In this document: positions 18,418-40,538 of the stretch, in pieces | How the letters are laid out: each line of letters opens with the position of its first letter | Numbering within the stretch: position 1 is the first letter of the stretch | DNA from: Geothrix oryzisoli | Lineage (GTDB): Bacteria; Acidobacteriota; Holophagae; Holophagales; Holophagaceae | Direction: 5' to 3' | Assembly: GCF_022808865.1 (NCBI RefSeq) | Contig: NZ_JAKZLB010000002.1 | Coordinates: 262,019 to 326,018 of the forward strand | Length of the DNA: 64,000 bases | Notes under the pieces: model-generated | Told to the model about the DNA's origin: nothing | Databases searched by the model: none | The model's input: the letters and a program-made list of their open reading frames with translations, nothing else | Translations under genes and position numbers: made by a program

Positions 18418-18494
18418 CGGAGCGTGGCGCAGCCTGGTAGCGCATCTGCTTTGGGAGCAGAGGGTCGCGAGTTCGAATCTCGCCGCTCCGACCA
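18418..18494 (+). tRNA. tRNA-Pro (anticodon TGG)
   Basis: 77 bases folding as a full cloverleaf: acceptor CGGAGCG/CGCTCCG, D-arm GCGC...GCGC, anticodon stem TCTGC/GCAGA with loop TTTGGGA (anticodon TGG), T-arm GCGAG-TTCGAAT-CTCGC, and an encoded CCA end. Followed 20 bases later by a strong hairpin terminator. Confidence 0.97.
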
Positions 18495-26921: not shown

Positions 26922-27018
26922 GCCGACCCATTTAACGCTGGACTCGAACTGTGCTCGGCTGCACCGATCACCGGTCTCGTTCCGACAGCGCCCCGCGCTG
27001 TCTCCACGATCCCACTCG
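26922..27018 (-). repeat. tRNA-trailing repeat element, copy A (3' of tRNA-Arg)
   Basis: A 97-base element related to the one at 40283-40395. Shared blocks in plus-strand order: GCCGACCCAT (26922-26931), the T-arm-like GGACTCGAAC (26940-26949), and a core (26971-27018) with CCGGTC, GACAGC...GCTGTCTCC hairpin and CCCACTCG. It lies just downstream of tRNA-Arg in the direction of tRNA transcription. 26937-26949 matches the T-arm of this same tRNA exactly over 13 bases. Confidence 0.6.
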
Positions 27019-27054
27019 ACGCTGGACCCCGGCCGCATCTGTGCGGCTGGGGCT

Positions 27055-27103
27055 GGTCCGAGTCCAGCTAGGCGCACTTGGTGCGCCTAGCTGGACTCGA
27101 ACC
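27055..27103. repeat. Inverted duplication of the tRNA-Arg 3' end
   Basis: Bases 27055-27077 are an inverted copy (one mismatch in 23) of 27081-27103, which is the T-arm and acceptor end of tRNA-Arg. Only three bases separate the arms. The transcript could fold into a long hairpin that competes with the tRNA T-arm and acceptor stem or acts as a terminator. Confidence 0.85.
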
Positions 27104-27155
27104 AGCGACCTACGGCTTAGAAGGCCGTTGCTCTATCCACCTGAGCTATAGGCGC
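27079..27155 (-). tRNA. tRNA-Arg (anticodon TCT)
   Basis: 77 bases on the minus strand: acceptor GCGCCTA/TAGGCGC, D-arm GCTC...GAGC, anticodon stem ACGGC/GCCGT with loop CTTCTAA (anticodon TCT), T-arm GCTGG-TTCGAGT-CCAGC, and an encoded CCA. A TAGACT -10 box on the minus strand (27165-27170) lies nine bases upstream. Confidence 0.97.
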
Positions 27156-27164
27156 GCGAGGGAT

Positions 27165-27170
27165 AGTCTA
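27165..27170 (-). promoter_or_regulatory. Predicted -10 box of tRNA-Arg
   Basis: TAGACT on the minus strand, nine bases before the mature tRNA end. Confidence 0.5.
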
Positions 27171-27219
27171 GCGGGTCGGGGTGGGGGTGGACGGGTTCGG
27201 CGGGCGGGAGGCCTTGCCC

Positions 27220-27225
27220 TAGACT
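27220..27225 (+). promoter_or_regulatory. Predicted -10 box of the DUF4337 gene
   Basis: TAGACT, 21 bases before ATG 27247, with the ribosome site AAGGAGG in between. Confidence 0.5.
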
Positions 27226-27246
27226 GGGGGCCTCAAGGAGGCGGCC

Positions 27247-27849
27247 ATGCCCGAGACCCTCGACCCGATCCAGGATGAGGTGCAGGACCACGCGCGGGAC
27301 AGCCGCTTCAACGGGTTCATCGCCCTCTTCGTGGCGGTGGTGGCCACCTTCATGGCCCTGTGCAACGTGAAGGACGGCAATGTCGTCCAGGCCATGCAGC
27401 AGTCCCAGGCCAAGGCGGTGGACCAGTGGGCCTACTACCAGAGCAAGAGCACCAAGCAGCACATCGCCGAGAACGCGGTGGAGATGCTGAAGGTCCAGCT
27501 CGACATGAGCCCGGGGTTGAAGCCGGAGGCGCGCGCCAAGGTGGAGGCCCGGATCGCCGCTCAGGAAGCGGCCGGCAGGAAATACGAGCAGGAGAAGGAG
27601 CAGATCAAGGCGCAGGCGGAGCAGGCCGCCAAGGACTACGACGCCATGAACGTCCATGACGACCAGTTCGACCTCGCCGAGGCCTGCCTGAGCGTGGCCG
27701 TGGCGCTGGCGGGGGTCACCGCCCTGACCCGGAAGCGGTGGCTCTTCGCCGTGGCCGGAGTCTTCGCCGGCATCGGCTTTGTCTTCGGTCTGGCGGGCTT
27801 CCTCCACTGGAACCTGCACTCCGAGATGATGGCGAAGCTCCTGGGCTGA
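27247..27849 (+). CDS. DUF4337 family membrane protein
   Basis: A 200-residue protein matching the DUF4337 layout. It has an N-terminal acidic stretch, a transmembrane helix (FIALFVAVVATFMALCNV, residues 24-41), the conserved QSQAKAVDQWAYYQSKSTKQ segment, a long charged coiled coil (about 90-140, KYEQEKEQIKAQAEQAAKDY) and two C-terminal transmembrane helices (about 150-190). Function unknown. Good AAGGAGG ribosome site. Convergent with the Tsx-like gene; a bidirectional terminator lies between. Confidence 0.85.
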   Translation: MPETLDPIQDEVQDHARDSRFNGFIALFVAVVATFMALCNVKDGNVVQAMQQSQAKAVDQWAYYQSKSTKQHIAENAVEMLKVQLDMSPGLKPEARAKVEARIAAQEAAGRKYEQEKEQIKAQAEQAAKDYDAMNVHDDQFDLAEACLSVAVALAGVTALTRKRWLFAVAGVFAGIGFVFGLAGFLHWNLHSEMMAKLLG

Positions 27850-27868
27850 AGCCTGTCGCCTGAACGAA

Positions 27869-27894
27869 AAAGGGGGCCCGGCGGGGCCCCCTTT
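27869..27894. terminator. Bidirectional terminator
   Basis: AAAGGGGGCCC - GGCG - GGGCCCCCTTT, a perfect 11-pair stem with A-tract before and T-tract after, between the convergent DUF4337 and Tsx-like genes. It can serve both strands. Confidence 0.85.
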
Positions 27895-27912
27895 CCGTTG
27901 GTTCCGAATGGC

Positions 27913-28746
27913 TCAGAAGTGGATCTGAAGCTGGGCCATGGGCGCGGTGACGCGCTTGTTGGTGGCGGGAGCGGGGCCGTCGTTGTTCGGGCCGCCGAAC
28001 TTGTTGTTCCAGTACTCGAAGCCGGGGCCCACGTAGACCTTCTTCTTGGTGCCGAAGAGGGGGCTGATGTCGAACATCAGCGTCAAGTTGGCGAGGGTCT
28101 CGGGCTTGGTCTCGATGCCGAAGCCGTCCTTGCCCTTGGCGCCCTCGTAGTTGGCGTAGCCCTTGAACTCGGCGCCCACCTCGCCCATCTGGAAGGGGAT
28201 GCCCCAGGCGGCGGTGAGGTAGTAGGTGGTCTTGAAGTCCACGGACCGGCCCACGATGCCGTTGTAGTTCTGCTCGTGGCAGGCGAGGAGGCCCAGGTCG
28301 AAGAAGCCGGCCGGCACCTTGAAGTTGAAGGTGGGACCGGCGACCAGGAAGCGCTTCTTGGAGGCGAAGGCGTTGTCCTTGGAGTTGAAGTCGAAGCCGG
28401 CGGTGAGGGAGATGTCGCGCACGGGGCCGAAGCCGAGGTCGGTCTTCGTGAGCTTGCCGAGGCTCAGGGAGCCGCGGTAGAGCGCGTAGACCTCGTTGGC
28501 GCCGCTGTTCCCGCTGGCGGTGGGGTCGTTCCGGTCGGACATGAGCATGTCCACGTTGAAGAAGTTCGTGCCGTAGGCCCAGCCGCTGACGTGGCCGAGC
28601 TGGACGATGTTCTTCTTCACGGTGCCGTCGATGCCGGGCTCGCGGAACTGGGTGCCGGTGCGGTAGCCGATGAAGGTGTCGCTCCAGTCGGCGGCGGCGG
28701 CGGGCAGGGCCACCAGGGCCACGAGGGCGAGGGCGAATTTGGACAT
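27913..28746 (-). CDS. Tsx-like nucleoside-specific outer-membrane channel
   Basis: A 277-residue outer-membrane protein with signal peptide MSKFALALVALVALPAAAA and Tsx-family features: DWSDTFIGYRTGTQFREPG, HVSGWAYGTNFFNVDMLMSD, GPVRDISLTAGFDFNSKDN and KKRFLVAGPTFNFKVP. It ends in Phe as barrel proteins do. ATG 28746 gives the signal peptide and has GGAG upstream; an earlier in-frame ATG (28770) adds eight residues. Tsx passes nucleosides through the outer membrane. It is the last gene of a minus-strand set with two nucleobase permeases, so its role in nucleoside or nucleobase uptake is well supported. Confidence 0.85.
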   Translation of the reverse strand: MSKFALALVALVALPAAAADWSDTFIGYRTGTQFREPGIDGTVKKNIVQLGHVSGWAYGTNFFNVDMLMSDRNDPTASGNSGANEVYALYRGSLSLGKLTKTDLGFGPVRDISLTAGFDFNSKDNAFASKKRFLVAGPTFNFKVPAGFFDLGLLACHEQNYNGIVGRSVDFKTTYYLTAAWGIPFQMGEVGAEFKGYANYEGAKGKDGFGIETKPETLANLTLMFDISPLFGTKKKVYVGPGFEYWNNKFGGPNNDGPAPATNKRVTAPMAQLQIHF

Positions 28747-28775
28747 GGAAACTCCGTGGAAGGCAGCCACTGAGG

Positions 28776-30194
28776 CTAGGCGGACAGGAAGAGGAGCTTG
28801 AGCAGGAAGATGGCCGAGAGCACGAGGATGATCGGGTTGATCTCCTTGAAGCGCCCGGTGGCGGCCTTCAGCACGGTGTAGGCGATCATGCCGAGGGCGA
28901 TGCCGTTCACGATGGAGAAGGTGAAGGGCATGACGATGACGGCCAGGTAGGCCGGGATGGCGTCGGTCACGTCGTCGAACTTGATCTCCTTGATCTCCGA
29001 CAGCATGAAGAAGCCGATCATCATGAGCGCCGGGGCCGTGGCCTGGAGCGGCACCATGAGGAAGAGGGGCGAGAGGAAGAGAGCCAGGGCCAGCCAGCCC
29101 GCCACCACCAGGGCCGTGAGGCCCGTCTTGCCGCCCTCGGCCACGCCCGACGCGCTTTCGATGTAGGCGGTGATGGCCGTCGTGCCGAACATGGACGCGA
29201 AGGTGGTGCCCACGGCGTCGGCCATGAAGGCCTTGGACGCGCCGGGGAACTTGCCCTCCTTGTCCAGCAGCTTGCCCTGGGCGCCGATGCCCATGAGCGT
29301 GCCGATGGTGTCGAACATGTCCACGAAGAGCAGGGTGAACAGGATGATGAAGATGTTGATCATGCCGCCCAGGGACTTCGTCCAGGTCCAGTCGTACTGG
29401 AACATCTTCGGCCAGCTGGGAATCTGGAAGAGCGTGCCCTTGGGCAGGTGGGTGAAGCCGCCGCCGAAGCTCACGGGCAGCAGGCCCACCAGGGTGATGG
29501 CGAGGATGCCCAGGAGGATGGCGCCCTTCACGCGCTTGGCCACCAGCACGGCGATGAGGAAGAGGCCCACCACGGACCAGAAGGCGGGGGTGAGGTGGCC
29601 GTGGTCCCAGAACTTCGCGATGAAGAGGTTGTTCACGTCATGCAGGCCGAAGAGGGCCGCGGGGTCGTTCTTCAGGACCGGGAAGATCGTGTCGGGCTCG
29701 AACTTCAGGCCCACCTGGGTCACGCCGGAATCCACGAAGCCGATGATGGCGATGAAGAGGCCGATGCCCACGGAGATGCCCTTCTTCAGCGAGAAGGGGA
29801 TGGCGTCCATGAAGGCCTCCCGCACCTTCATGGCGCTGAGGGCGATGAAGACGAGGCCCTCGAGCAGCAGGGCCGTGAGGGCCACCTGGATGGTGTAGCC
29901 CATGCCGCCCTGGTTGGCCGGGGCACAGACGGTGAATGCGAAGAAGGCCGAGAGGCCGATGCCCGACGCGAAGGCGATGGGCAGGTTCGCGTAGAAGGCG
30001 CCGATGAGGGTCGAGAGGATGGCGCACACCACGAAGGCCGTGAACCCCACATGGGGCGCGATGCCCGCCACCTTGAGGAAGGCGTTGGGGATCAGCGAGA
30101 TCACGTAGGCCATCGAGATGAAGGTGGTGGTGCCCGCAAGCACCTCCGTGGCCACCGTGGTGCCCTTGGCCTTCAGACCAAAAAACCGTTCCAT
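28776..30194 (-). CDS. NCS2 family purine permease (AzgA/GhxP type)
   Basis: A 472-residue inner-membrane proton symporter for hypoxanthine, guanine or adenine. The N-terminus FFGLKAKGTTVATEVLAG and TTTFISMAYVISLIPN match the AzgA group rather than the UraA/UapA group. About 12-14 hydrophobic helices are visible, with FASGIGLSAFFAFTV and SASGVAEGGKTGLTAL as conserved transport segments. A GAGGAG ribosome site precedes the ATG. It lies between the UraA-type permease and the Tsx-like channel. Confidence 0.92.
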   Translation of the reverse strand: MERFFGLKAKGTTVATEVLAGTTTFISMAYVISLIPNAFLKVAGIAPHVGFTAFVVCAILSTLIGAFYANLPIAFASGIGLSAFFAFTVCAPANQGGMGYTIQVALTALLLEGLVFIALSAMKVREAFMDAIPFSLKKGISVGIGLFIAIIGFVDSGVTQVGLKFEPDTIFPVLKNDPAALFGLHDVNNLFIAKFWDHGHLTPAFWSVVGLFLIAVLVAKRVKGAILLGILAITLVGLLPVSFGGGFTHLPKGTLFQIPSWPKMFQYDWTWTKSLGGMINIFIILFTLLFVDMFDTIGTLMGIGAQGKLLDKEGKFPGASKAFMADAVGTTFASMFGTTAITAYIESASGVAEGGKTGLTALVVAGWLALALFLSPLFLMVPLQATAPALMMIGFFMLSEIKEIKFDDVTDAIPAYLAVIVMPFTFSIVNGIALGMIAYTVLKAATGRFKEINPIILVLSAIFLLKLLFLSA

Positions 30195-30222
30195 GCGGTA
30201 CTCCTCGAAAGGGGTGAAGGGA

Positions 30223-31503
30223 TCAGGATTGTGTTTCGGTGTCGTTGCTGAGGCCCAGGTGGTCGAGACCCCAGAAGAGCAGGCTGAGGGCGATGGCCAC
30301 CACCGTGCCTAGGGCCATGCCCTTGAGCTCCACGGTGCCCAGCTTCACGGCCGCACCGCTGATGCCGCTGATGAGCACCACGGAGGTGAGGATCAGGTTG
30401 CGGGACTGGGTGTAGTCCACCTTCTTCTCGATGAGCATGCGGATGCCCGCGGCGGCGATGACGCCGAAGAGCAGGATGCAGACGCCGCCCATGACGGGCA
30501 CGGGGATGCTCCGGATGAGGGCGGCCAGCTTGCCGGAGAAGGACACCAGGATGGCGATGACCGCCGTGCCGCCGATGACCCACACGCTGTAGACCTTGGT
30601 GATGGCCATGACGCCGATGTTCTCGCCGTAGGTGGTGTTGGGCGTGGCCCCGACGAGGCCCGACAGCACGTTGGAGAGGCCGTCGCCCAGCAGCGAGCGG
30701 TGCAGGCCGGGGTCCTTCATCAGGTCCTTGCCCACGATGTTGCCCGTCACCACCAGGTGCCCCACGTGCTCGGCCAGCACCACCAGCGCGGCGGGCAGGA
30801 TGATGAGGATGGCCTGCAGGTTGTAGGTGGGCGCATAGAGGGTGGGCACCTGGAACCAGGGCGCCAGGCGTACGGACTCGAAGTTCACCACGCCGAGGCC
30901 GAGCGAGATCAGGTAGCCCGCGATGACGCCCAGCAGCACGGGGATCACCGCCAGGAACCCGCGCAGGAGGATGGAGGCCAGGATGGTCACCGCCAGGGTG
31001 GACAGCGACACCACCAGGGCCAGGCGCAGCGGCATGCCCAGCACCGCGGGGCCGGCGGTGAGCCCGGCCATGTTGGTGGCCACGGGGGCCAGCTCCAGGC
31101 CGATGATGGCGACGATGGCGCCCATGGCGGCCGGGGGGAAGATGACGTCGATCCACCGGGTGCCCGCAACGCGCACCACCTGGGAGAGCAGCATGAAGAT
31201 GAGGCCGAAGACGATGAAGCCGCCCTGGGCGGCCGAGTAGCTCAGCCCCGCCGCCAGCACGGCGAAGACCGGCGAGAGGAAGGCGAAGCTCGAGCCCAGG
31301 TAGGCGGGGATGCGGCCCTTGGCCACGACCAGGTAGATCAGCGTGCCCACGCCGTTCATCAGCAGGCAGGTCGCGGGATTCACCTTGAAGAGGAAGGGCA
31401 CCAGCACCGTGGCGCCGAACATGGCGAAGAGGTGCTGGAGGCTCAGGGGCGCGGTCTGCAGCAGGGGCAGGCGTTCGTCGACGTCGATGGTGCGGCGCTG
31501 CAT
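30223..31503 (-). CDS. Uracil/xanthine permease family transporter (UraA type)
   Basis: A 426-residue NAT/NCS2 transporter for uracil or xanthine. ATG 31503 gives MQRRTIDVDERLPLLQTAPLSLQHLFAMFG (in part), the usual UraA start; upstream in-frame residues are non-coding in character. The substrate region GLVGATPNTTYGENIGVMAITKVYS and the segment ALVVLAEHVGHLVVTGNI (both shortened) match UraA with the conserved Glu residues. First gene of the permease-permease-channel set. The 200-base upstream spacer is AT-rich at 31640-31660, where the promoter probably lies; no purine riboswitch was seen. Confidence 0.92.
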   Translation of the reverse strand: MQRRTIDVDERLPLLQTAPLSLQHLFAMFGATVLVPFLFKVNPATCLLMNGVGTLIYLVVAKGRIPAYLGSSFAFLSPVFAVLAAGLSYSAAQGGFIVFGLIFMLLSQVVRVAGTRWIDVIFPPAAMGAIVAIIGLELAPVATNMAGLTAGPAVLGMPLRLALVVSLSTLAVTILASILLRGFLAVIPVLLGVIAGYLISLGLGVVNFESVRLAPWFQVPTLYAPTYNLQAILIILPAALVVLAEHVGHLVVTGNIVGKDLMKDPGLHRSLLGDGLSNVLSGLVGATPNTTYGENIGVMAITKVYSVWVIGGTAVIAILVSFSGKLAALIRSIPVPVMGGVCILLFGVIAAAGIRMLIEKKVDYTQSRNLILTSVVLISGISGAAVKLGTVELKGMALGTVVAIALSLLFWGLDHLGLSNDTETQS

Positions 31504-31702
31504 GGGGGCCTCGGCAGGGTGGGTCCCTGCGAGGGCGCAAGAAGGATGCGCCGATCTCCGGGGGCCGGGGAGGGATCCGCCCGGTCCGGAAGCACAAGGA
31601 CAGCTCAATTCTTCCGTGTCCGGGAGTTTGTGCGCATCACATTTTGTTTTTTACAAGGCTCATGGGCCGTGACCGGTGCCCGGTGGAGGGACGCCCGGGG
31701 GC

Positions 31703-33220
31703 CTACCGGGAGCCGCGGCTGCGACCCGCAGGGACCACCCGCTGGACTTTGACCTCTTCCTGGGCCCGCGCGGCCTTCTTCAGGAACTGCTTCGTGGACA
31801 TGAACTCGAGCATGGCTTCGAAGGCATCTGCCGGCAGGGGCCGGCCCAGCAGGAAGCCCTGGAGGCAGTCGCAGCCCAGCAGCTCCAGCATGTCGCGCTG
31901 GCCCTCGGTCTCCACGCCTTCGGCCACCACCGTGAGGTTGAGGCTGTGGGCCAGCTGGATCACCGCCCGCACGATGGCCTCGGAGGAGAGGGCCGGGTCC
32001 TCGGACTGCAGCGCGGCAATGAAGGACTGGTCCAGCTTCAGGGTGGTGATGGGCAGGCGCTGGAGGTAGCCCAGGGAGCTGTAGCCCGTGCCGAAATCGT
32101 CGATGGCGATCCGGGTGCCGATCTCGCGCAGGCGGTGGAGCGGGGCCAGATCCTCATGCCCCTGGCGCATCACCAGGCTTTCGGTGAGCTCCAGCTCCAG
32201 GCAGCCGGGTTCCAGGCCGGTATCCGCCAGGGCCCGCGCCACACAGGTGTCCCAGTCCCCGTTGGCGAACTGGAGGACGGACACGTTCACGGCGAGGAGG
32301 AGCGGGGAGGGGGTGATGGCCTGCCACTTGGCCATCTGGCCGCAGGCCTCGCGGAGGGCCCATTCGCCGATGGGCAGGATGAGGCGGCTCTCCTCGGCCA
32401 GGGGGATGAACTTCACGGGAGGGACCGCGCCGAGGAGGGGGTGGTTCCAGCGCATGAGCGCCTCGGCCCCGGCGAGGCGGCCATCCATGAAGAACTGGGG
32501 CTGGTAGTACATCTGCAGCTCGCCGTTCTGGAGGGCGCTCCGCAGGCAGCTCTCCAGTTCCTGGCGCTCAAGGGAGACCTCGTTGAGCGTGCTGGTGAAG
32601 CACTCGATGCGGTTGCCGCCCCGTTCCCGGGCCCGGCACAGGGCGGACTCCGCGTGGGCCTCCAGCGCATGGGCGTCCATCCCGTCGTTGGGGTAGACGC
32701 AGACGCCGATGCTGGCGGTGAGGTCCAGCTCCCTGGATCCGGCGTGGAAGGGCGTCTGGAGGGCCTCCAGCAGCTTCTGCCCCACCCGGGCGGCGGCCAC
32801 GACGTCCTTGATCTCCTGCAGCAGGACCATGTAGCGGTCACCGCCCATGCAGGCCAGCGTGTCGCCCTCGCGCAGGGTCTCCTTGAGCCGCTGCGCCACC
32901 TGCCTCAGCACCTCGTCGCCGCCCGAATGCCCCAGCAGGTCGTTGACGCGCTTGAAGCGGTCCAGGTCCAGGAAGAGGATGGCGACAATGTGCCCGTGGC
33001 GCTGGGCCATGAGCAGGGCCTGGGACAGCCGGTCCTCGAAATGCCGGTGGTTGGGCAGGCCGGTGACGTTATCCAGCAGGCTCAGTTCCGACACGCGCTG
33101 CTCGAGGGCGCCGATGCGCCGCTCCGCATTGCGGAGACGGCCGATCGCGTCGAGACGGTCGATCTTGAGCATGAAGCCCTTGAGATCCAGACCGTGGGGG
33201 CGCTCGTTCGGCAAATGCAC
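31703..33220 (-). CDS. Degenerate GGDEF plus EAL domain protein (probable c-di-GMP phosphodiesterase)
   Basis: A 505-residue protein. A short N-terminal coiled coil (about 20-45) is followed by a GGDEF domain (DNVTGLPNHRHFEDRL, LFLDLDRFKRVNDLLGHSGGDE) whose catalytic signature reads MGGDRY instead of GGDEF, so it is probably not a cyclase. The EAL domain is complete: GAEALMRWNHP, ELTESLVM, IDDFGTGYSSLGYLQ, KLDQSFI and VVAEGVETEGQ. It should hydrolyse c-di-GMP in the cytoplasm. The start is GTG 33220; ATG 33172 is an alternative. No membrane segment or sensor domain is visible. Confidence 0.9.
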   Translation of the reverse strand: MHLPNERPHGLDLKGFMLKIDRLDAIGRLRNAERRIGALEQRVSELSLLDNVTGLPNHRHFEDRLSQALLMAQRHGHIVAILFLDLDRFKRVNDLLGHSGGDEVLRQVAQRLKETLREGDTLACMGGDRYMVLLQEIKDVVAAARVGQKLLEALQTPFHAGSRELDLTASIGVCVYPNDGMDAHALEAHAESALCRARERGGNRIECFTSTLNEVSLERQELESCLRSALQNGELQMYYQPQFFMDGRLAGAEALMRWNHPLLGAVPPVKFIPLAEESRLILPIGEWALREACGQMAKWQAITPSPLLLAVNVSVLQFANGDWDTCVARALADTGLEPGCLELELTESLVMRQGHEDLAPLHRLREIGTRIAIDDFGTGYSSLGYLQRLPITTLKLDQSFIAALQSEDPALSSEAIVRAVIQLAHSLNLTVVAEGVETEGQRDMLELLGCDCLQGFLLGRPLPADAFEAMLEFMSTKQFLKKAARAQEEVKVQRVVPAGRSRGSR

Positions 33221-33355
33221 TCCAGTTGCTGGAGGAATCCTAAGGGCGGATTGGGAATTTCGCCAGTCTTAATGACCAACTGAATGAGGAAAAATCGACC
33301 CATCGCGTGAACGCTGAATCTTTGATCCCCCGGGCCGGCGGCCTGCCTTCCGGGC

Positions 33356-34834
33356 TCAGGGGCGCCGGGCGCGGACCTCGGCGAGGGCCAGGGCCATGCG
33401 GGCGCACGCCTCATTCTGCTCCTCCACCGAGTGGGCCGCGAAGCCCAGGCAGATGTACGGAAGGGCCCGGCGGTGAAGGTCGTAGAGGCTCCCCGGGTAG
33501 AACACCACCCCATGGGCGAGGCACCGCTCCGTCCAGGCCTCCAGAGGCACGCCGTCGGCCACCCGGACCCAGAGGGACAGGCCTTCCCGTGGGTTCTTCA
33601 CGGAGACGGCGGGGTGCAGGTGGAGGAGCAGGCGATCCACCATGGTCTCCCTCCGCTCATCCGTGAGTTTCCGCACCCGCCGCAGGTGGCGCACGATCTC
33701 GCCATCGCGGAGGGTCTCCTCGATGGTCGCCTCCTGGACGAGGTTCCCGGGCCAGTCGACCAGCTGGCGCTGCTGGGCGAGGGTCTTGATGAGGCCGGCC
33801 TCTCCGGCGAGGAAACCCACCTGGAGGCCGGGGGCGAGGATCTGCTCGAAGCTGCTGAAGTAGAGCACTCGGCCGTGGTGGTCTTCGCTGGCCAGGGGAA
33901 GGCGGGGATTTTTCTCCCGGTGGAAGCCCAGGCTGGGATCGCCCTCCAGGATCCGGAAGCCGTGGGCGACGGACAGCTCCAGCAGGCGCCTGCGGCGGGC
34001 GGGATCCAGGGCCGCCTGGGTCGGGAACTGGGGGCTGGCGGTGAGGTAGAGGAGCCGGATGGGCTCCTGGACGAGCAGGGCCTCCAGCGCCTCCACGTCC
34101 AGCCCCCGGGCATCGACGGGCACGGGGAACAGGCGGGCCCCGGCGGCGCGGAAGGCCTCGGCGACCCGGAACTGCCCCGGATTCTCCATGGCCACGGCAT
34201 CCCCCGGGGCGAAGAGCACGCGGGAGACCAGGTTCAAGGTGCTCATCAGGCCCCGGGTGAGCAGGAGGTTTCCCGCCTCGACCGAGAGCCCCCGCATGTC
34301 CCGGAGCATCTTGCAGAGCGAATTCCGCAGATCGAGGAGCCCCCGGGGATCCCAGCCCGGCTGGAGGAGCCGCTCCGGGTGGAGCCGCAGGACCCGGCCG
34401 TAGGCCCGGTGGATGGCCTCGGTGGGGGCGAGCCTCAGGTCCGGCGTATCCGGGATGAGCTGGAAGGACTCCAGCGCCGGGGCCCCGGGCTGGAAGAAGA
34501 CCTCGTTGGGGGGCGAGGCCCGCTTCCAGGAGGCGGAATCCTGGGCCGAGATGCCCGCGGGGACATCCAGGACGATGGGGAGCCGCCGGGCGACGAAGGT
34601 GCCGCGGTCGGGTGCCACCTCGATCCAGCCCTCGGCCTCCAGCTCCTTGTAGGCGGCCAGAGTGGTGTTCCGGTTGACCCCCAGCAGATCGGCCAGCGCC
34701 CGGGTGCCGGGAAGGGCATCCCCGGGCTTGAACCGCCCGTGACGGATGCCCTCCTCGAGCGCCCCCACCAGCTGGAGGTAGAGGGGCTCCGGATTGGATC
34801 GATCCAGCGCGATGGCGAGATCCCAGCTACCCAA
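33356..34834 (-). CDS. MocR/PdxR-like GntR regulator with aminotransferase-like domain lacking the PLP lysine
   Basis: A 492-residue protein. Residues 10-80 form a GntR winged helix (PLYLQLVGALEEGIRHGRFKPGDALPGTRALADLLGVNR, in part). The rest is a class I aminotransferase-like domain. In MocR proteins the Schiff-base lysine sits in a TFSKTLxPxLRLGY motif; here the segment is SSFEQILAPGLQVGF, with Gln331 in the lysine position. SHQYPTG is also changed (SPQFPTQ). It cannot form the normal internal aldimine. The annotated start is TTG 34834, needed to include the full winged helix. Target and ligand unknown; the barrel and TIGR03118 genes are neighbours. Confidence 0.8.
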   Translation of the reverse strand: MGSWDLAIALDRSNPEPLYLQLVGALEEGIRHGRFKPGDALPGTRALADLLGVNRNTTLAAYKELEAEGWIEVAPDRGTFVARRLPIVLDVPAGISAQDSASWKRASPPNEVFFQPGAPALESFQLIPDTPDLRLAPTEAIHRAYGRVLRLHPERLLQPGWDPRGLLDLRNSLCKMLRDMRGLSVEAGNLLLTRGLMSTLNLVSRVLFAPGDAVAMENPGQFRVAEAFRAAGARLFPVPVDARGLDVEALEALLVQEPIRLLYLTASPQFPTQAALDPARRRRLLELSVAHGFRILEGDPSLGFHREKNPRLPLASEDHHGRVLYFSSFEQILAPGLQVGFLAGEAGLIKTLAQQRQLVDWPGNLVQEATIEETLRDGEIVRHLRRVRKLTDERRETMVDRLLLHLHPAVSVKNPREGLSLWVRVADGVPLEAWTERCLAHGVVFYPGSLYDLHRRALPYICLGFAAHSVEEQNEACARMALALAEVRARRP

Positions 34835-34896
34835 GGAGAGGCTCCCTACTGAGAATCAGCATCCGGAATGGCGTGGGCCGCGTCAAGGCGCGGGGC

Positions 34897-36060
34897 TCAA
34901 TAGCCGTACCCCCCGCCGCCCGTGCCGCCCCCGGTGCCCGCCGAGCCGTAGCTGATGATGCCGAACACCCCGTGCGCCTGCGCCTGGGGGCCCGCCGTCA
35001 CATAGAGCAGGTTGGATTGGCCGGCCGAACCATCGTTGCCGAAGGTCATCCCCCAGAGCCCGCTGAGGGCCAGGGGGGCGCCACTGGGCCCCGAGAGCTG
35101 GCCCAGCTGGGCGCCCGTGGTGGCGTCGAAGGCCGTGATGCGCCCGTCGCCGAAGTTGCCCACGAGGAGGGCCCCGCCGTAGGTGCCGAAGGTGGCCGGC
35201 GCGAGCGCGAGGCCCCACGGCGCGTTGAGCAGGCCGCCGGCGGCCACGCGCCGGACGAAGGTGCCGTCGAGGTTGAAGACGTCCAGGACGCCGAGTCCCG
35301 CCCCCGTCGTTTCGCGCATGGCGGGCGGATCATGCTTGGCATAGGCCACGTAGAGCTTGCCGGCCAGCACCTGGACGTTGAATGGGGCGTAGCCGGCCGG
35401 GAGGGCCGGATCCACCCACGCCGCGGCCCCGAGGTTGACCGGAGCGTAGGAGGAGTCGAAGACCTCGATCGCGCCCCCGTTGAAGTTCGCGGCGAACAGG
35501 TAGGTGGCGGTTCCGTTGGTGCCGATGGCAAGCCCCGTGTAGACGGCCGCGCTGCCGGAGTGGTCCACGCGGCGGACCGCGGTCGCACCTGCGCTCCACC
35601 CGCTGAGGCTCCCATCCAGGGAGGCCAGGATGAAGGTATCGCCGGCAAACCCTGTGGTCCCGCTGAAGACGATGCCTGTGGGGCCGCCGAGCGCGGCTCC
35701 GGTCACGGGGGGATCGGAGACCACCAGGGGCGTGGTCAAGGGATGGCCCAGCCCGTCATACACGGTGGTCGTGGCCGTCCCCTGGTCGGCCACCCAGAAA
35801 CGGGTGGTCGGCCCATAGGCCAGCCCCCAGGGGTTCACCAGGTTGGGATCCACCGTGGTGGCCCCCGCACTGGCCTGATCGGCGACCAGCGCGGTCCATT
35901 GGTAGGTTGGCGGGGCGGCGGGCATGGAGGAGCCGCCGCCAGAGCCGCCACCGCAGGCGGCCAGGCCCACCAGCAAGGATGCGGCACCCGCGAGGAAGAG
36001 CGGGCGGCGGCTCTGGCGCACCGAGGCGCATCGGGTGGATTCAGGAAGGGGTTGGAGCAT
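34897..36060 (-). CDS. TIGR03118 family lipoprotein, NHL-like propeller
   Basis: A 387-residue exported protein. After a basic N-terminus, a hydrophobic leader ends in a lipobox (LLVGLAAC) and a Gly/Ser linker follows. The body matches the TIGR03118 family: NLVNPWGLAYGPTTRFWVADQG, GGPTGIVFSGTTGF, LFAANFNGGAIEVFDSSY and GLLNAPWGLALAPATFG (given in part), repeated strands suggesting a beta propeller. It ends in a Gly/Tyr-rich tail. The function of the family is not established. Divergent from the barrel gene at 36278. Confidence 0.82.
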   Translation of the reverse strand: MLQPLPESTRCASVRQSRRPLFLAGAASLLVGLAACGGGSGGGSSMPAAPPTYQWTALVADQASAGATTVDPNLVNPWGLAYGPTTRFWVADQGTATTTVYDGLGHPLTTPLVVSDPPVTGAALGGPTGIVFSGTTGFAGDTFILASLDGSLSGWSAGATAVRRVDHSGSAAVYTGLAIGTNGTATYLFAANFNGGAIEVFDSSYAPVNLGAAAWVDPALPAGYAPFNVQVLAGKLYVAYAKHDPPAMRETTGAGLGVLDVFNLDGTFVRRVAAGGLLNAPWGLALAPATFGTYGGALLVGNFGDGRITAFDATTGAQLGQLSGPSGAPLALSGLWGMTFGNDGSAGQSNLLYVTAGPQAQAHGVFGIISYGSAGTGGGTGGGGYGY

Positions 36061-36277
36061 GGGAACCTCCAGCTCGCTGGCGCGAGCGAAATCCGGGACG
36101 GAGCGGGTTCCGGGGTGGGGGAACGCGGGGCGAAGGCCGGTCTGTCCAGCTTCGGGCGGGAGGCGTCCGACACCAGATCCGGTTCGGAGATGGGGAGCCC
36201 TCCGGTGCCCAGAGATCGTTGGCCGGCGCGAGAACGGTGGGATACCATCCTCGGGATCCGCAGGCTCCCGGAGGGTG

Positions 36278-37336
36278 ATGCCGATCCCACGCTGGTTCCT
36301 CTTCTTCGCCGCCCTGGCCGCTTCGGGCCAGGAGGCGGCCCCCTTCGCCCCGGAGCCGAGGGATCCGTGGCGTCCCGCCTGGGAGCTGACGGTGCGGGGG
36401 GACCGGCTGGCCGATCCCGGCGATGCCGCCGAGTCCTTCCGCCGTGCTGGCGTCCAGCTCAGGCTCCGCTGGGCCTGGGACCTGGACGCCCTCCACCTCG
36501 AAGCCGGGACGCGCTCGGCCATGGGCTCCGACGGGAACCAGTTCAATGCGCCCCGGTGGGACCAGCAGCCCTCCAACGGGACCCAGCTGGACCTCCTGCG
36601 GGGCGCCGTGTCCTGGGTGTCGGAGCGGGCCTTCGCCACCTTCAGCGTGGGCCTCCAGGAAAATGGCCTCCTGGGCTCCCAGGCCATCTGGGACCGGGAT
36701 CTGCGCGTTCTCGGCGCGGAAGGACGGCTGGGGGTCCGGGATGCCTCGGGGTGGGTCCAGGAAGCGGGCCTGCGCGCCGTGGCCGGCCGGGTCCGGACCG
36801 TCCTGGGGGGAAGGGTGGACCTGGCCGCGGGCCAGGCCGTCCTGAAGCTGGATACGGGTCCCTGGTCCTGGACTGCGCACGCCGGCCGCTGGACCCTCGC
36901 CTGGGATCCGGCCGGGGAGCGCCTCCGCCGGCTGCCGGGGCACGACCCCTTGGCCCGGCAGCGCCTGGTGCTGGACACGGCAGGGGCCGCCGGGCAGTGG
37001 AACCGGGTCTTCCCGCTGGAAGCCCGGTGGTTCGGGGCCCGGAACCGGGAGACCGGCGAGTCGAGCGAAGAGGTCCAGGCCGTGGCCGGGAGCCGCGAGC
37101 GGGTCTACTGGCCCCAGCTGACCTTCACCTGGCAGCGCCTCTCCTCCACGGGCACCCTCTACCCGGTGAACGGCGACGAGTGGTGGTTCTACCGCCGGGC
37201 GCGCGGGCCCCGGCTCGACCTGGCCCTGCCCCTGCCGGGCCACTGGGTCGCCACCCTCGTCCATCTGCGGCAGACCGCCGACGGTGAGGACTACCGCATC
37301 ACCCGGACCATGGTGGTCCTCCAGAAGCGGTTCTGA
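36278..37336 (+). CDS. Predicted outer-membrane beta-barrel protein
   Basis: A 352-residue protein of unknown family. It has a signal peptide (MPIPRWFLFFAALAASGQE), many amphipathic strands (RAGVQLRLRWAWDLDALHLEAG, in part; AFATFSVGLQENGLLG; YWPQLTFTWQRLSSTGTLY) and a C-terminal Phe in MVVLQKRF, the pattern of outer-membrane barrels. GGAGGG precedes ATG 36278. It may be an alginate-export-like or general porin (inference). Its stop is 9 bases from the end of the convergent cupredoxin gene. Confidence 0.65.
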   Translation: MPIPRWFLFFAALAASGQEAAPFAPEPRDPWRPAWELTVRGDRLADPGDAAESFRRAGVQLRLRWAWDLDALHLEAGTRSAMGSDGNQFNAPRWDQQPSNGTQLDLLRGAVSWVSERAFATFSVGLQENGLLGSQAIWDRDLRVLGAEGRLGVRDASGWVQEAGLRAVAGRVRTVLGGRVDLAAGQAVLKLDTGPWSWTAHAGRWTLAWDPAGERLRRLPGHDPLARQRLVLDTAGAAGQWNRVFPLEARWFGARNRETGESSEEVQAVAGSRERVYWPQLTFTWQRLSSTGTLYPVNGDEWWFYRRARGPRLDLALPLPGHWVATLVHLRQTADGEDYRITRTMVVLQKRF

Positions 37337-37345
37337 AACACACTC

Positions 37346-38038
37346 TCAGTAGTTCCGCTCGTCGGCCGGGGGCGGGTAGTCCCTTCCGAACTTGTTCTTG
37401 TGAGGCTCGAGGGCCGGCAGGGAGAGGTCCAGGTTCCAGGTGCCCGTGGTGACGCCCGCGCCGACATTCAGGGTCCAGGCCTTCTCCCCGGCTTCCGGAT
37501 GCCAGAGGACGAGCCGGTAGGTGCCCGGGGGGACCTGGTCGAACGCCACGCCGGTCCGGCCGTCGAGCAGCTCCGCGAAGGGGGTCGTCACCACCCACAG
37601 GAAGGCGTTCATCTGGTGGTGGATGTTGCAGTAGAGCTTCACCAGCCCGGCATGGGCCACCTTCACCCGGGGAGCGTCGCCGGGCTGGTACTGGCCGGTG
37701 TCGAACCGGTTGCCCTGGGTCACGCTGAACACGTTGTGGACGAGGTGGTCCAGGTTGGGGAAGGCCACCTCCGTTCCCGGCGTGGCGATGGAGACGCGGG
37801 GCAGGAACTGCTTTCCGACCGTGCGGATGGAGACGGGCTTCGAGGGGCCCACGGCCGGGACGACGGCATCGAGGGGCTCGAGGATGGCCACGCAGTCCTT
37901 CAGCGAGGCCCGGATCCGGCCATCCTTCTCCCGGAGGCGCACGGTCCCCCGAACGCTTCCCGCCTGCGCCGGCAGGGCCGCGGCCAAGGTGGCGACCAGG
38001 GCGACGACCGGCAGACCGCGTGCAATCGCTCGAATCAT
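37346..38038 (-). CDS. Periplasmic cupredoxin-like protein (methylamine-utilisation type)
   Basis: A 230-residue exported protein with signal peptide MIRAIARGLPVVALVATLAA. The middle resembles plastocyanin/cupredoxin: FPNLDHLVHNVFSV supplies the first His, and KLYCNIHHQMNAFLWV the Cys, His and possibly Met copper ligands. A C-terminal FDQVPPGTYRLVLWHPEAG strand pair looks like a carboxypeptidase-regulatory or transthyretin-like fold. It is likely a periplasmic copper electron carrier. A good -10 box TATACT (38067-38072, minus) lies in the 55-base spacer shared with the divergent kinase gene. Confidence 0.8.
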   Translation of the reverse strand: MIRAIARGLPVVALVATLAAALPAQAGSVRGTVRLREKDGRIRASLKDCVAILEPLDAVVPAVGPSKPVSIRTVGKQFLPRVSIATPGTEVAFPNLDHLVHNVFSVTQGNRFDTGQYQPGDAPRVKVAHAGLVKLYCNIHHQMNAFLWVVTTPFAELLDGRTGVAFDQVPPGTYRLVLWHPEAGEKAWTLNVGAGVTTGTWNLDLSLPALEPHKNKFGRDYPPPADERNY

Positions 38039-38066
38039 GCTTGGCTTCCGGGGTAGATTCGTGGCC

Positions 38067-38072
38067 AGTATA
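38067..38072 (-). promoter_or_regulatory. Predicted -10 box of the cupredoxin gene
   Basis: TATACT on the minus strand, 28 bases before ATG 38038, in the divergent spacer with the kinase gene. Confidence 0.5.
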
Positions 38073-38093
38073 CCGGTGGATGAGGGAAGGCCC

Positions 38094-40256
38094 ATGCAGC
38101 CAACCATGAGGTGGTACCAGACCCTGGCCTGGACCCTGTTCATCCGCCAGGCGGCGGCCGTGCTGGGGATCCTTGCCGTGATCCTGTGGGTGGCCTACAG
38201 CGAGGCCGAGCGGGGGGCCCGGGCCACGGCGGCCACGAGCCTCTCTGCCGGCGGGTATGTCCTCGAGCGGGCCTTCGAGCAGCAGGGCCATTCCCTGGAT
38301 GCGGGCCTGGATGTCTTCACCCAGTACTCCGGGAACGTCGCGCTCGTGGAGCAGACCCTCGAGTCGGGCGCCGCCTCCAGCCTCACCGACACCCTGGTCG
38401 ACAACCTCCCCCGGCTGAACGCGGAGATCGCGCTCGTGGTGAAGCCGGACGGGTCGCTCCTGGCCTCCAGCGCCAAGGGTGCCGGGCCGGCGTTCCTCGA
38501 CGTGGGGATCCTGCAGATGGCGCTGGCGCCAGAAGATGCCCAGGTCGCGGGCCACCCGGGCCCCTCGTACCGGGGCTTCCTCCGGGTGAACTGGGGGGAC
38601 CGTCCCGGGGTGTACCACGCCGTGGCCCGGCCCCTGCGGTCGCCGGGGGGCCGACCATTGGGGGCCATGCTCGTGGGGGTGCGGGTGGACGATCGCGCGG
38701 CCACGGACCTCCGGAGGCTGGCTGTCGCCGGGCCCCAGCGTGACGATCCCTCCCCCCACCTGGCGCTGCTGAGCCAGTTCCAGACCCTGGGCGCCACCCT
38801 TCCGGAGGCGGACGCCCTCGACCGCCTGCTGGCCCGGGATCCGGCCCTCCTCGCGGTCCGCTACCGCGTGCTCGACGGCCAGCGTTCCCCCGTCGTGCCC
38901 TTCCGCGTGGGCGGCCTGACCTACCTGGGGATGATCTCCCCGCTCCGGGGCGTGAACGCGCTGGACCTGCAGATGGCCGACGTGCTGCTGATGCCCGTGG
39001 ACCCGCTGTTGGCACCCTTCCGCAACCTGCAGCGGGCCATCCTGGCCGTGGGTGCGGCCGGCCTGCTCGCGGCCCTGGCCCTCAGCCTCCGGTCCGCCCG
39101 GAAGGTGACGGCCCCGCTCAAGACCCTCGCGGATGCCGCGGAAGCCCTGGCCGGAGGGGATCGGCCCGAGACCCTGGCCCTCGTGCCGTCCCAGGACGAG
39201 GTGGGAGTGCTGGCCCGCATCTTCAAATCCATGCTGGCCGAGCTGCGGGCCAAGGATGATCTGTTGGCCCTGCTCGAGGGCCTTCACCGGAGTCCCGGCG
39301 GGGCGGCCGCGGGCCCCGGCCCCAAGGACGTCCCGGGGGTCCTGTCGCCTCCGGACGACGCCACCCGGCGCCTCGACCCGGCGGCTCCGCGGCGGGAGGA
39401 GGACCCCCTGCCGTCCACCCTCCAGGAGGGCAGGGTCTTCGCCGCCCGCTATCGGGTGGAGGGGGTGCTGGGACGCGGCGGGATGGGCGTCGTCCTGAAG
39501 GTCCGGGACCTGCAACTGGACGAAGAGGTCGCCCTGAAGGTCATCCGCGCGGGCCTGGCCTCGAATCCGGACTTCCTGGCCCTCCTCAAGCAGGAGATCC
39601 GCCTGGCCCGGAGGATCACCCACCGGTACGTGCTCAGGACCCACGATTTCGGGGAGTTCGATGGCATCCCCTACGTGACGATGGAGTACCTGAAGGGCAT
39701 CACCCTCCGGAGCCTGCTGGACGGCCGGGGGCGCCTGCCCCTCCCGCTCGTGCTGCGCATCGCCCGGCAGGTGGCCGAGGGTCTGGAGGCGGCCCACGCG
39801 GTCGGCGTGGTCCACCGGGACATCAAGCCCGCGAACGTCCTGTTCGATGTGCGCGGCGACGCCAAGATCATGGACTTCGGCCTCGCCGCTCCCGCCACCA
39901 CGGTGGGGCAGGCGGGCCTCCTCCTGGGCTCCCCCCGGTACATGGCGCCGGAGCAGATCCGGGGCGAGGGCGTGGATGCGCGGACCGACCTGTACTCCCT
40001 GGGCGTGATGCTGTTCGAGCTGTGCTCCGGTGTTCCGCCCTTCGACAGTCCCCGCATCGACGACCTCCTGGCCCTGCACCTCGAGGCGCGGCCGCCGGCC
40101 CTGGCCGCCCTGGTGCCGGACCTCCCCGCGGATGTGGGGGCCCTGGTGGGCCGGCTGCTGGAGAAGCGCCCCGACCACCGCCCGCAAACCGCCGCCGAGG
40201 TGTCCGAGATCCTGAAAATCCTCGCGACGGCGGGCGGGGAGAGCTCGCGGGTGTAA
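38094..40256 (+). CDS. Membrane Ser/Thr protein kinase with N-terminal extracytoplasmic sensor and HAMP
   Basis: A 720-residue fusion. Transmembrane helix 1 (about 15-33), a periplasmic sensor region (34-315, dCache/CHASE-like: LVVKPDGSLLASSAKG, YHAVARPLRSPGG), transmembrane helix 2 (about 316-336) and a HAMP-like segment (about 338-390). A Pro/Gly-rich linker leads to a Hanks-type kinase domain (about 450-715): GRGGMGVV, ALKVI (Lys482), HRDIKPANV (Asp575) and DFGLA (Asp594), all catalytic residues intact. The sensor sits in front, as in histidine kinases; most bacterial STPKs have the kinase first. It is divergent from the cupredoxin gene, which may be linked in function. Confidence 0.9.
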   Translation: MQPTMRWYQTLAWTLFIRQAAAVLGILAVILWVAYSEAERGARATAATSLSAGGYVLERAFEQQGHSLDAGLDVFTQYSGNVALVEQTLESGAASSLTDTLVDNLPRLNAEIALVVKPDGSLLASSAKGAGPAFLDVGILQMALAPEDAQVAGHPGPSYRGFLRVNWGDRPGVYHAVARPLRSPGGRPLGAMLVGVRVDDRAATDLRRLAVAGPQRDDPSPHLALLSQFQTLGATLPEADALDRLLARDPALLAVRYRVLDGQRSPVVPFRVGGLTYLGMISPLRGVNALDLQMADVLLMPVDPLLAPFRNLQRAILAVGAAGLLAALALSLRSARKVTAPLKTLADAAEALAGGDRPETLALVPSQDEVGVLARIFKSMLAELRAKDDLLALLEGLHRSPGGAAAGPGPKDVPGVLSPPDDATRRLDPAAPRREEDPLPSTLQEGRVFAARYRVEGVLGRGGMGVVLKVRDLQLDEEVALKVIRAGLASNPDFLALLKQEIRLARRITHRYVLRTHDFGEFDGIPYVTMEYLKGITLRSLLDGRGRLPLPLVLRIARQVAEGLEAAHAVGVVHRDIKPANVLFDVRGDAKIMDFGLAAPATTVGQAGLLLGSPRYMAPEQIRGEGVDARTDLYSLGVMLFELCSGVPPFDSPRIDDLLALHLEARPPALAALVPDLPADVGALVGRLLEKRPDHRPQTAAEVSEILKILATAGGESSRV

Positions 40257-40282
40257 AGGGGGCACCGGGGATGTCGGGAGCG

Positions 40283-40395
40283 GCCGACCCATCATCCGCT
40301 TCGGCCCGCTCGGCCGGACTCGAACCGCATCCCGCTTTGCGGTCTGCCGGTCCCGCTCCCGACAGCCCACCGGGCTGTCTCCGCGGTCCCACTCG
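40283..40395 (-). repeat. tRNA-trailing repeat element, copy B (3' of tRNA-His)
   Basis: A 113-base element related to 26922-27018. Shared blocks in plus-strand order: GCCGACCCAT (40283-40292), GGACTCGAAC (40316-40325), and a core (40347-40395) with CCGGTC, a GACAGC...GCTGTCTCC hairpin and CCCACTCG. The next bases (40393-40414) are an inverted near-copy of the tRNA-His T-arm (GTGGGTTCGAGTC). Confidence 0.6.
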
Positions 40396-40421
40396 TGGGT
40401 TCGAGTCTCGTCAGAGGACTT

Positions 40422-40465
40422 CCCCAATAGCAAAGGGCCCCAGTTGGGGCCCTTTGCTATTGGGG
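40422..40465. terminator. Perfect 20-pair hairpin containing the tRNA-His CCA end
   Basis: Arms 40422-40441 and 40446-40465 around an AGTT loop. The right arm reaches into the tRNA-His gene, covering its CCA (40461-40463) and the bases before it. It probably ends tRNA-His transcription on the minus strand, although no clear U-run follows. Confidence 0.75.
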
Positions 40466-40538
40466 CGGCTGATGGGACTCGAACCCACGACACCTGGAAT
40501 CACAATCCAGTACTCTAACCAACTGAGCTACAGCCGCC
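40461..40538 (-). tRNA. tRNA-His (anticodon GTG)
   Basis: 78 bases on the minus strand including the extra G(-1) typical of tRNA-His, paired with C73: GGCGGCTG/CAGCCGCC. Anticodon stem CTGGA/TCCAG, loop TTGTGAT (anticodon GTG), T-arm GTGGG-TTCGAGT-CCCAT with imperfect pairing at the last base, encoded CCA. A TAGTCT -10 box (40551-40556, minus) lies 12 bases upstream. Confidence 0.96.

Follow-up and report, generated by a model that had tools for sequence, protein, structure and literature searches.

In a 64,000-nt stretch of the Geothrix oryzisoli genome (hereafter, the window), two tRNA genes on the minus strand are each followed by a short element that lies between copies of part of the tRNA itself. 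This arrangement raises the question of whether the elements are mobile DNA that copies its tRNA target or a processed RNA made together with the tRNA; both possibilities were offered in a first-pass annotation of the window, and the present analysis supports this proposal in part, with points in favour of each. It is unusual for an element to copy the T-arm of the tRNA it follows, whichever that is, and then to keep in step with it. Acting as RNA, the element would regulate tRNA maturation in cis at many tRNAs of one genome, a role directly testable because Geothrix is culturable; acting as DNA, it would illustrate how small folded elements can persist at tRNA 3' ends, the sites where genomic islands most commonly enter. 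In both cases, annotation pipelines can mistake members of this repeat family for tRNA fragments or islands.

Two elements in the window and their family

The features of the two loci are listed in Table 1. The spans 26922-27018 and 40283-40395, initially annotated as the tRNA genes, are the elements, and the tRNAs lie at 27079-27155 and 40461-40537. The words that had been described as shared by elements A and B, and their order, were confirmed from the sequence, as was the presence in both of an inverted T-arm copy beside the tRNA and a direct copy at the far side. Behind tRNA-His, the minus strand reads, from 5' to 3', a perfect trailer hairpin, the inverted T-arm copy GACTCGAACCCACGA, the stretch CGAGTGGGACCGCGGAGACAGC...GCTGTCGGGAGCGGGACCGGC, a second arm, and the direct copy GTTCGAGTCC. 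Behind tRNA-Arg, the inverted copy follows almost directly after the CCA end and is separated from the core by an extra hairpin; related hairpins occupy the identical insertion point at three other loci (L016, L023, and L115). The tail word ATGGGTCGGC recurs in many copies of the family.

Table 1. Positions of tRNA genes, elements A and B, and their parts in the window
Feature	Position	Strand	Basis or remark
tRNA-Arg (TCT), host of element A	27079..27155	-	ARAGORN; Rfam RF00005
Inverted copy of tRNA-Arg 3' end (T-arm, acceptor strand, start of CCA), immediately behind the tRNA	27052..27077	-	Sequence; mirror alignment
Extra hairpin between inverted T-arm and core, element A	27027..27051	-	Sequence
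Element A	26940..27030	-	Model match, 74 bits (cmsearch); fold
Element A, core	26950..27018	-	
Element A, P2	26972..27014	-	
Element A, P3	26951..26971	-	
Element A, direct T-arm copy	26940..26949	-	
Element A, tail word ATGGGTCGGC (GCCGACCCAT on +)	26922..26931	-	Sequence
tRNA-His (GTG), host of element B	40461..40537	-	ARAGORN; Rfam RF00005
Mirrored trailer hairpin including CCA end of tRNA-His	40422..40465	-	Sequence; no U-tract 3' of hairpin
Inverted T-arm copy of tRNA-His	40393..40408	-	3' part reaches past left strand of P1
Element B	40316..40408	-	Model match, 108 bits (cmsearch); fold
Element B, P1	40398..40408 with 40316..40326	-	
Element B, P2	40348..40391	-	
Element B, P3	40327..40347	-	
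Element B, direct T-arm copy	40316..40325	-	
Element B, tail word ATGGGTCGGC (GCCGACCCAT on +)	40283..40292	-	Sequence
tRNA-Pro (TGG), without element in the window	18418..18494	+	ARAGORN

A pattern derived from the core was scanned over genome contigs and matched 15 of them. Twelve belong to Geothrix, other Holophagaceae, or Acidobacteria bins, and each of their matches lies near a tRNA; the other three (L015, L021, and L024; bacterial, outside Holophagaceae) are chance matches with no tRNA within 8 kb and no element. A covariance model built from ten copies (R1) identified the element in 44 of the 47 genomes of the genus Geothrix, at 1 to 13 copies each; three further Holophagaceae genera had it in a small number of their genomes. 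The cultured species G. rubra, G. limicola, and G. paludis are among the carriers. For the phylum-wide search, R1 was replaced by a model built from 116 copies (R2), which matched 27 of 396 sampled Acidobacteriota genomes, every one of them Holophagaceae. No element was found in the sampled genomes outside this family, in a draw that was even but partial and with a search that may miss weak relatives. Among viral contigs, none of 12 pattern matches had the fold. No Rfam family matched the elements, either at gathering level or in cmscan of both elements up to E = 1; apart from the tRNAs, the Rfam matches were chance microRNA-like matches on the trailer hairpins. The open literature searched contained nothing on tRNA-trailer repeats in Geothrix. 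The element family is thus real, specific to Holophagaceae, absent from Rfam, and undescribed as far as the open literature searched shows.

The covariance-model search, combined with a listing of tRNA distance and strand as had been suggested at the outset, yielded further copies, nearly all tied to tRNA 3' ends. A tRNA is present upstream on the same strand in 126 of the 140 copies read in context, a result opposed to the two outcomes that would have spoken against the family, namely copies unlinked to tRNA genes or no further copies. Behind 73 of 74 tRNAs, the first copy begins 11-86 nt past the tRNA 3' end; in the exception it begins at 251 nt, with a decayed copy in front of it. The elements are ~90-190 nt in size with no genes inside, and with first copies ~90 nt long at these distances there is no room for a gene between the tRNA copies. 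About ten tRNAs serve as hosts, i.e. Pro-CGG/GGG/TGG, Arg-TCT/CCG, His, Thr-CGT/TGT, Met, and Asn, and also Asp, with a variant behind Ser. tRNA-Pro-TGG had been noted as lacking the element, which holds in the window and fails elsewhere: its orthologues carry an element at eight other loci read, and the three Pro tRNAs are the commonest neighbours of the family. Element-free tRNAs include those in operons (Gly/Tyr/Thr before tuf, Ile/Ala of rrn), Lys, Val-CAC, and others; used as a background control, they gave a best downstream inverted T-arm match of ≤15/23, compared with 16-22 behind most hosts. Since some tRNAs in some species do without it, the element is not essential.

Fold and tracking of the adjacent tRNA

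The elements fold into a three-way junction with a closing stem, P1, and two arms, P2 and P3. In P1, the inverted and direct T-arm copies pair with each other; P2 is a long arm containing internal loops rich in purines, and P3 is a shorter one. In the ten-copy set, which was not fitted to the model, 96% of cells are paired and double changes occur at 7 pairs; in the 116-copy set, whose alignment was fitted to the model and therefore leans towards the fold, 94.7% are paired, with double changes at 26 of 33 pairs (527 double-change cells), extending the covariation of stem bases first reported from the two window elements. These pair-change counts, like the G.U and strand counts below, do not represent independent events, the copies being related. 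The covariation score of the 116 copies was 0.418, compared with 0.155 ± 0.005 for shuffled alignments, none of which scored as high, and ≤0.088 with slid partners. A base-paired fold is thus conserved through compensatory changes while the sequences of its helices change. The fold of the His element has a z-score of -6.4 against dinucleotide shuffles.

The GACAGC/GCTGTC stem at the tip of P2, originally regarded as a conserved sequence, proved to be a swapped helix: several unrelated sequences (GACAGCGC, GGCGTGCC, GGCGCGAC, and GGCCCTCC, among others) occupy this position, all able to pair. The tip was also considered as a genome-wide repeat and rejected as such, as its matches looked unrelated, the exceptions being copies already known and a single perfect hairpin that follows an apparent tmRNA; counts of the tip pattern were up to about two-fold higher than those of a reversed control in most genomes. 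When P1 and the fixed U-G pair are left out, the tRNA strand has 36 G.U pairs against 16 A.C mismatches, and the sense fold is stabler than the antisense fold in 114 of 116 copies.

The extent of the inverted copy was determined by mirror alignment, in which the 3'-terminal 34 nt of every tRNA were compared with the reverse-complemented sequence that follows it. The copy had been described as one of the T-arm, which it includes; it spans more, beginning sharply and exactly at tRNA U47 and running through CCA into the trailer. Mirror identity is mostly 92-100% at T-arm positions (77% at one) and 62-82% at acceptor positions, the lower values being due partly to alignment freedom. The resemblance of the T-arm copies to the adjacent tRNA, recognized from the two window loci, extends to the family: when each inverted copy was compared with 12 distinct T-arm strings, its own tRNA was the best fit in 60 of 73 cases, tied in 12, and lost in one. 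The inverted copies match in each case the T-stems of tRNA-Pro-TGG orthologues (GAGAG, GGAGG, and GCGAG) and of tRNA-His genes (GTGGG and GCCGG). Within P1, nearly all single-base departures from the tRNA are transitions that preserve G.U pairing; outside P1, the T-stem complement is almost invariant with respect to its tRNA, with hardly any G.U changes. Both the fold of the element and its dependence on the tRNA beside it are well supported.

The mirror from U47 through CCA into the trailer is also the trace expected of an inverted duplication, and the elements might be functionless scars that duplications, both inverted and direct, have left at the 3' ends of tRNAs; templated repair within the quasi-palindrome and unequal crossing over in arrays would then have kept them similar. 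Tandem arrays are common, and templated copying could produce the tracking of the tRNA. Templated repair, however, predicts an even mirror, whereas the mid acceptor segment has decayed (62-82%) between a better-kept T-arm and trailer; the conserved junction bases, P3, and the excess of G.U pairs would be left unexplained, and across species the His element aligns, whereas the sequence beyond it does not. We consider this explanation unlikely.

A candidate tRNA 3'-trailer RNA

The likeliest role, though conjectural, would be that of a structured tRNA 3'-trailer RNA whose junction holds an anti-T-arm off the tRNA. The element is tentatively viewed, at a probability somewhat short of even, as a structured part of tRNA-gene 3' trailers, specific to Holophagaceae, that would act in cis as a guard or switch on the maturation of its own tRNA. 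A more specific form, which we regard as possible but doubtful, is a bistable trailer RNA fitted to each tRNA, in which a guide arm kept complementary to the host T-arm would control tRNA folding. Covariation, the excess of G.U over A.C, the stabler sense fold, and the lack of a U-tract terminator in the window and behind tRNA-Arg all favour RNA.

On the tRNA strand, the proposed transcript would comprise the tRNA, the trailer hairpin, the inverted copy from CCA back to U47 (the anti-T-arm), the core, and the direct T-arm copy, and the acting molecule would be RNA read on from the tRNA. Two mutually exclusive folds are envisaged: the anti-T-arm would either pair with the T-arm of the tRNA, which would be trapped, or be held in P1, leaving the tRNA free to fold and mature. 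Computed energies, which ignore co-transcriptional folding and modification, gave for all 73 transcripts (tRNA start to element end) a minimum-energy fold with the T-arm and anti-T-arm paired and the tRNA broken, whereas P1 formed in 63 of 73 trailers folded alone; in silico removal of the direct copy deepened the trap in 64 of 73 cases, by ~5 kcal/mol on average. The computed trap and P1 folds fit a guard or switch, the step from fold to function being one that we infer. The guard model has difficulties: outside P1, the anti-T-arm is kept more strictly than pairing as RNA would by itself demand, the left strand of P1 is often missing from inner tandem copies, and some tRNAs lack the element.

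Transcription into the element was assessed from the trailers. No U-tract terminator lies between tRNA and element in the window or in any Arg trailer read, and T-runs of ≥4 are absent from the trailers of Arg-TCT and Arg-CCG, such that the tRNA transcript can run into the element. T-runs of this length occur in about half of all trailers, including many of Pro-GGG, His, Thr, and Met, and these trailers may terminate transcription before the element. Co-transcription is therefore likely for some elements and doubtful for others.

Trailer hairpins are mirror-symmetric, several of them with T- and A-runs, and both window elements lie between the tRNA and an open frame pointing towards it. This would suit a two-way terminator or barrier that shields the tRNA gene from transcription arriving from the facing gene, or else an RNA made from the other strand. 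Yet no site resembling a terminator was found on either strand of the two window elements, folding is more favourable on the tRNA strand, and a barrier has no need of a T-arm copy, making this a very improbable explanation.

Small RNAs derived from tRNA 3' trailers, such as 3'ETS-leuZ, provide a precedent for a trailer RNA that may have an independent role; by comparison, the element described here is larger and structured, recurs at many tRNAs, and is complementary to the tRNA it follows. The rtT RNA of Escherichia coli tyrT (Rfam RF00391) reportedly consists of repeats downstream of a tRNA gene with a copy of the tRNA 3' end and is releasable from the tRNA transcript. The Geothrix elements are likewise repeats behind tRNA genes containing a tRNA 3'-end copy, but rtT follows one tRNA-Tyr, whereas here about ten other tRNAs are followed by inverted and direct copies and a covarying three-way junction. 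RF00391 was absent from the cmscan matches of both elements down to E = 1, and at the loci read the element was not found behind tRNA-Tyr, its hosts being Pro, Arg, His, Thr, Met, Asp, Asn, Ser, and others. The Rfam models of the Acido-1 and Acido-Lenti-1 RNAs (RF01686 and RF01687; PMC2864571) had no match in the elements.

Tandem arrays, displaced copies, and variant cores

Tandem arrays comprise four copies with a 137-base period in L012, two copies in L016, and three copies each in L022 and L023. The T-stem is matched exactly in 70 of 74 first copies and 32 of 52 inner copies; the latter often lack the left half of P1 and retain the direct copy, which in 71 of 74 first copies matches the tRNA at ≥9 of 10 positions. 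In L016, L079, and L140, the far side carries a complete tRNA 3' end. Growth of the arrays in tandem is clear from these sequences, and no fresh insertion was seen among the copies compared. In at least six species, the gene adjoining the His element is the same one, with an HtrA-like start. Core identity is 0.80 between copies behind the same tRNA in different genomes and 0.75 between those behind different tRNAs in one genome, indicating that the copies are mainly inherited in place, with exchange or fast change superimposed.

Stray copies, those with no whole tRNA upstream, lie mostly behind displaced tRNA 3' fragments; several follow 3' pieces of tRNA-Thr, His, and Pro, some of which are cut in the anticodon loop. 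In one genome (L254, 1-16116, with L080), a ~16-kb island with two tyrosine-recombinase-like frames separates an intact tRNA-Thr-CGT from a displaced 3' half that kept its trailer element, and in a sister genus a whole tRNA-Arg-CCG lies within 20 kb upstream of a stray copy. Such copies were most likely displaced together with a tRNA half by island integration, a general source of displaced tRNA fragments (PMC9897764, PMC4383910). Some strays are tRNA 3' fragments of the kind left by genomic islands (Islander, PMC4383910; PMC9897764), with direct tRNA 3'-end copies, but neither an inverted T-arm copy nor a conserved folded core is left behind by islands, and the present elements are short and gene-free.

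The arrays, and the whole tRNA 3' end with CCA and trailer hairpin at the far end of some copies, are the points in favour of mobility. They would suit a folded single-stranded recombination site or miniature element in which P1, containing both strands of the tRNA T-loop region, would serve as a double-stranded T-loop copy, to be recombined by a tyrosine recombinase with the T-loop in the tRNA gene. In integron attC and folded phage attP sites, structure is kept as sequence varies, and folding unites two arms into a double-stranded site. The element shares this conservation of structure over sequence, and its P2 tip would be free to vary because structure, not sequence, would be recognized; its DNA strand also folds well in computation. 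T-loops of tRNA genes are known integrase sites (PMC1762012). Unlike for attC and attP, no cassettes or integrase were seen linked to the elements, and their closing arms are T-arm copies. No recombinase or cargo was seen linked to the copies, integrase-like frames having been met only in an island that displaced a copy, and a single recombinase would need to accept about a dozen T-arm sequences. The shared position of the His element in at least six species and the lack of fresh insertions argue against frequent movement, as do the explainable strays, which look like passive island passengers. A recombination site is therefore, in our estimate, a possible explanation but a doubtful one.

REP/REPIN sequences with RAYT transposases (PMC2817692, PMC3116915) are likewise short palindromic intergenic repeats, partly in tandem, but they are scattered, whereas the present elements are bound to tRNA 3' ends. 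No transposase was found linked to the element; the Y1 (RAYT) transposase PF01797 is absent from the genome of the window and from most carrier genomes, and mobility of the REP/RAYT type was rejected for this reason.

Other core types were also observed. A second type (CAGGTAGGC...GATCAG.GCCGTG), which has the ACTTGATGT-type tip hairpin in common with the main family, lies behind tRNA-Cys (L153) and an apparent tmRNA 3' end (L234 and L235). A third (CGAGTGGCAGCCGGC...GCCGGCAAC) lies between two T-arm copies behind tRNA-Asn (L167), where it looks like a collapsed remnant, and tRNA-Met (L111). At tRNA-Ser-GGA of one genome (L243, G033), near-identical tandem units of ~197 bases each end in the tRNA-Ser 3' end and carry the GACAGC tip hairpin set in a different core. 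L124 (G032:C40) contains a pair of identical, oppositely oriented elements separated by 56 bases; together they form a large perfect palindrome with no intact tRNA nearby, which may be real or an assembly artefact. Finally, L248 (G035:C1:2916200-2917600) contains two partial copies in a row of one sequence (GACCGGTTTCGACAGGT), which we take to resemble a tmRNA 5' end.
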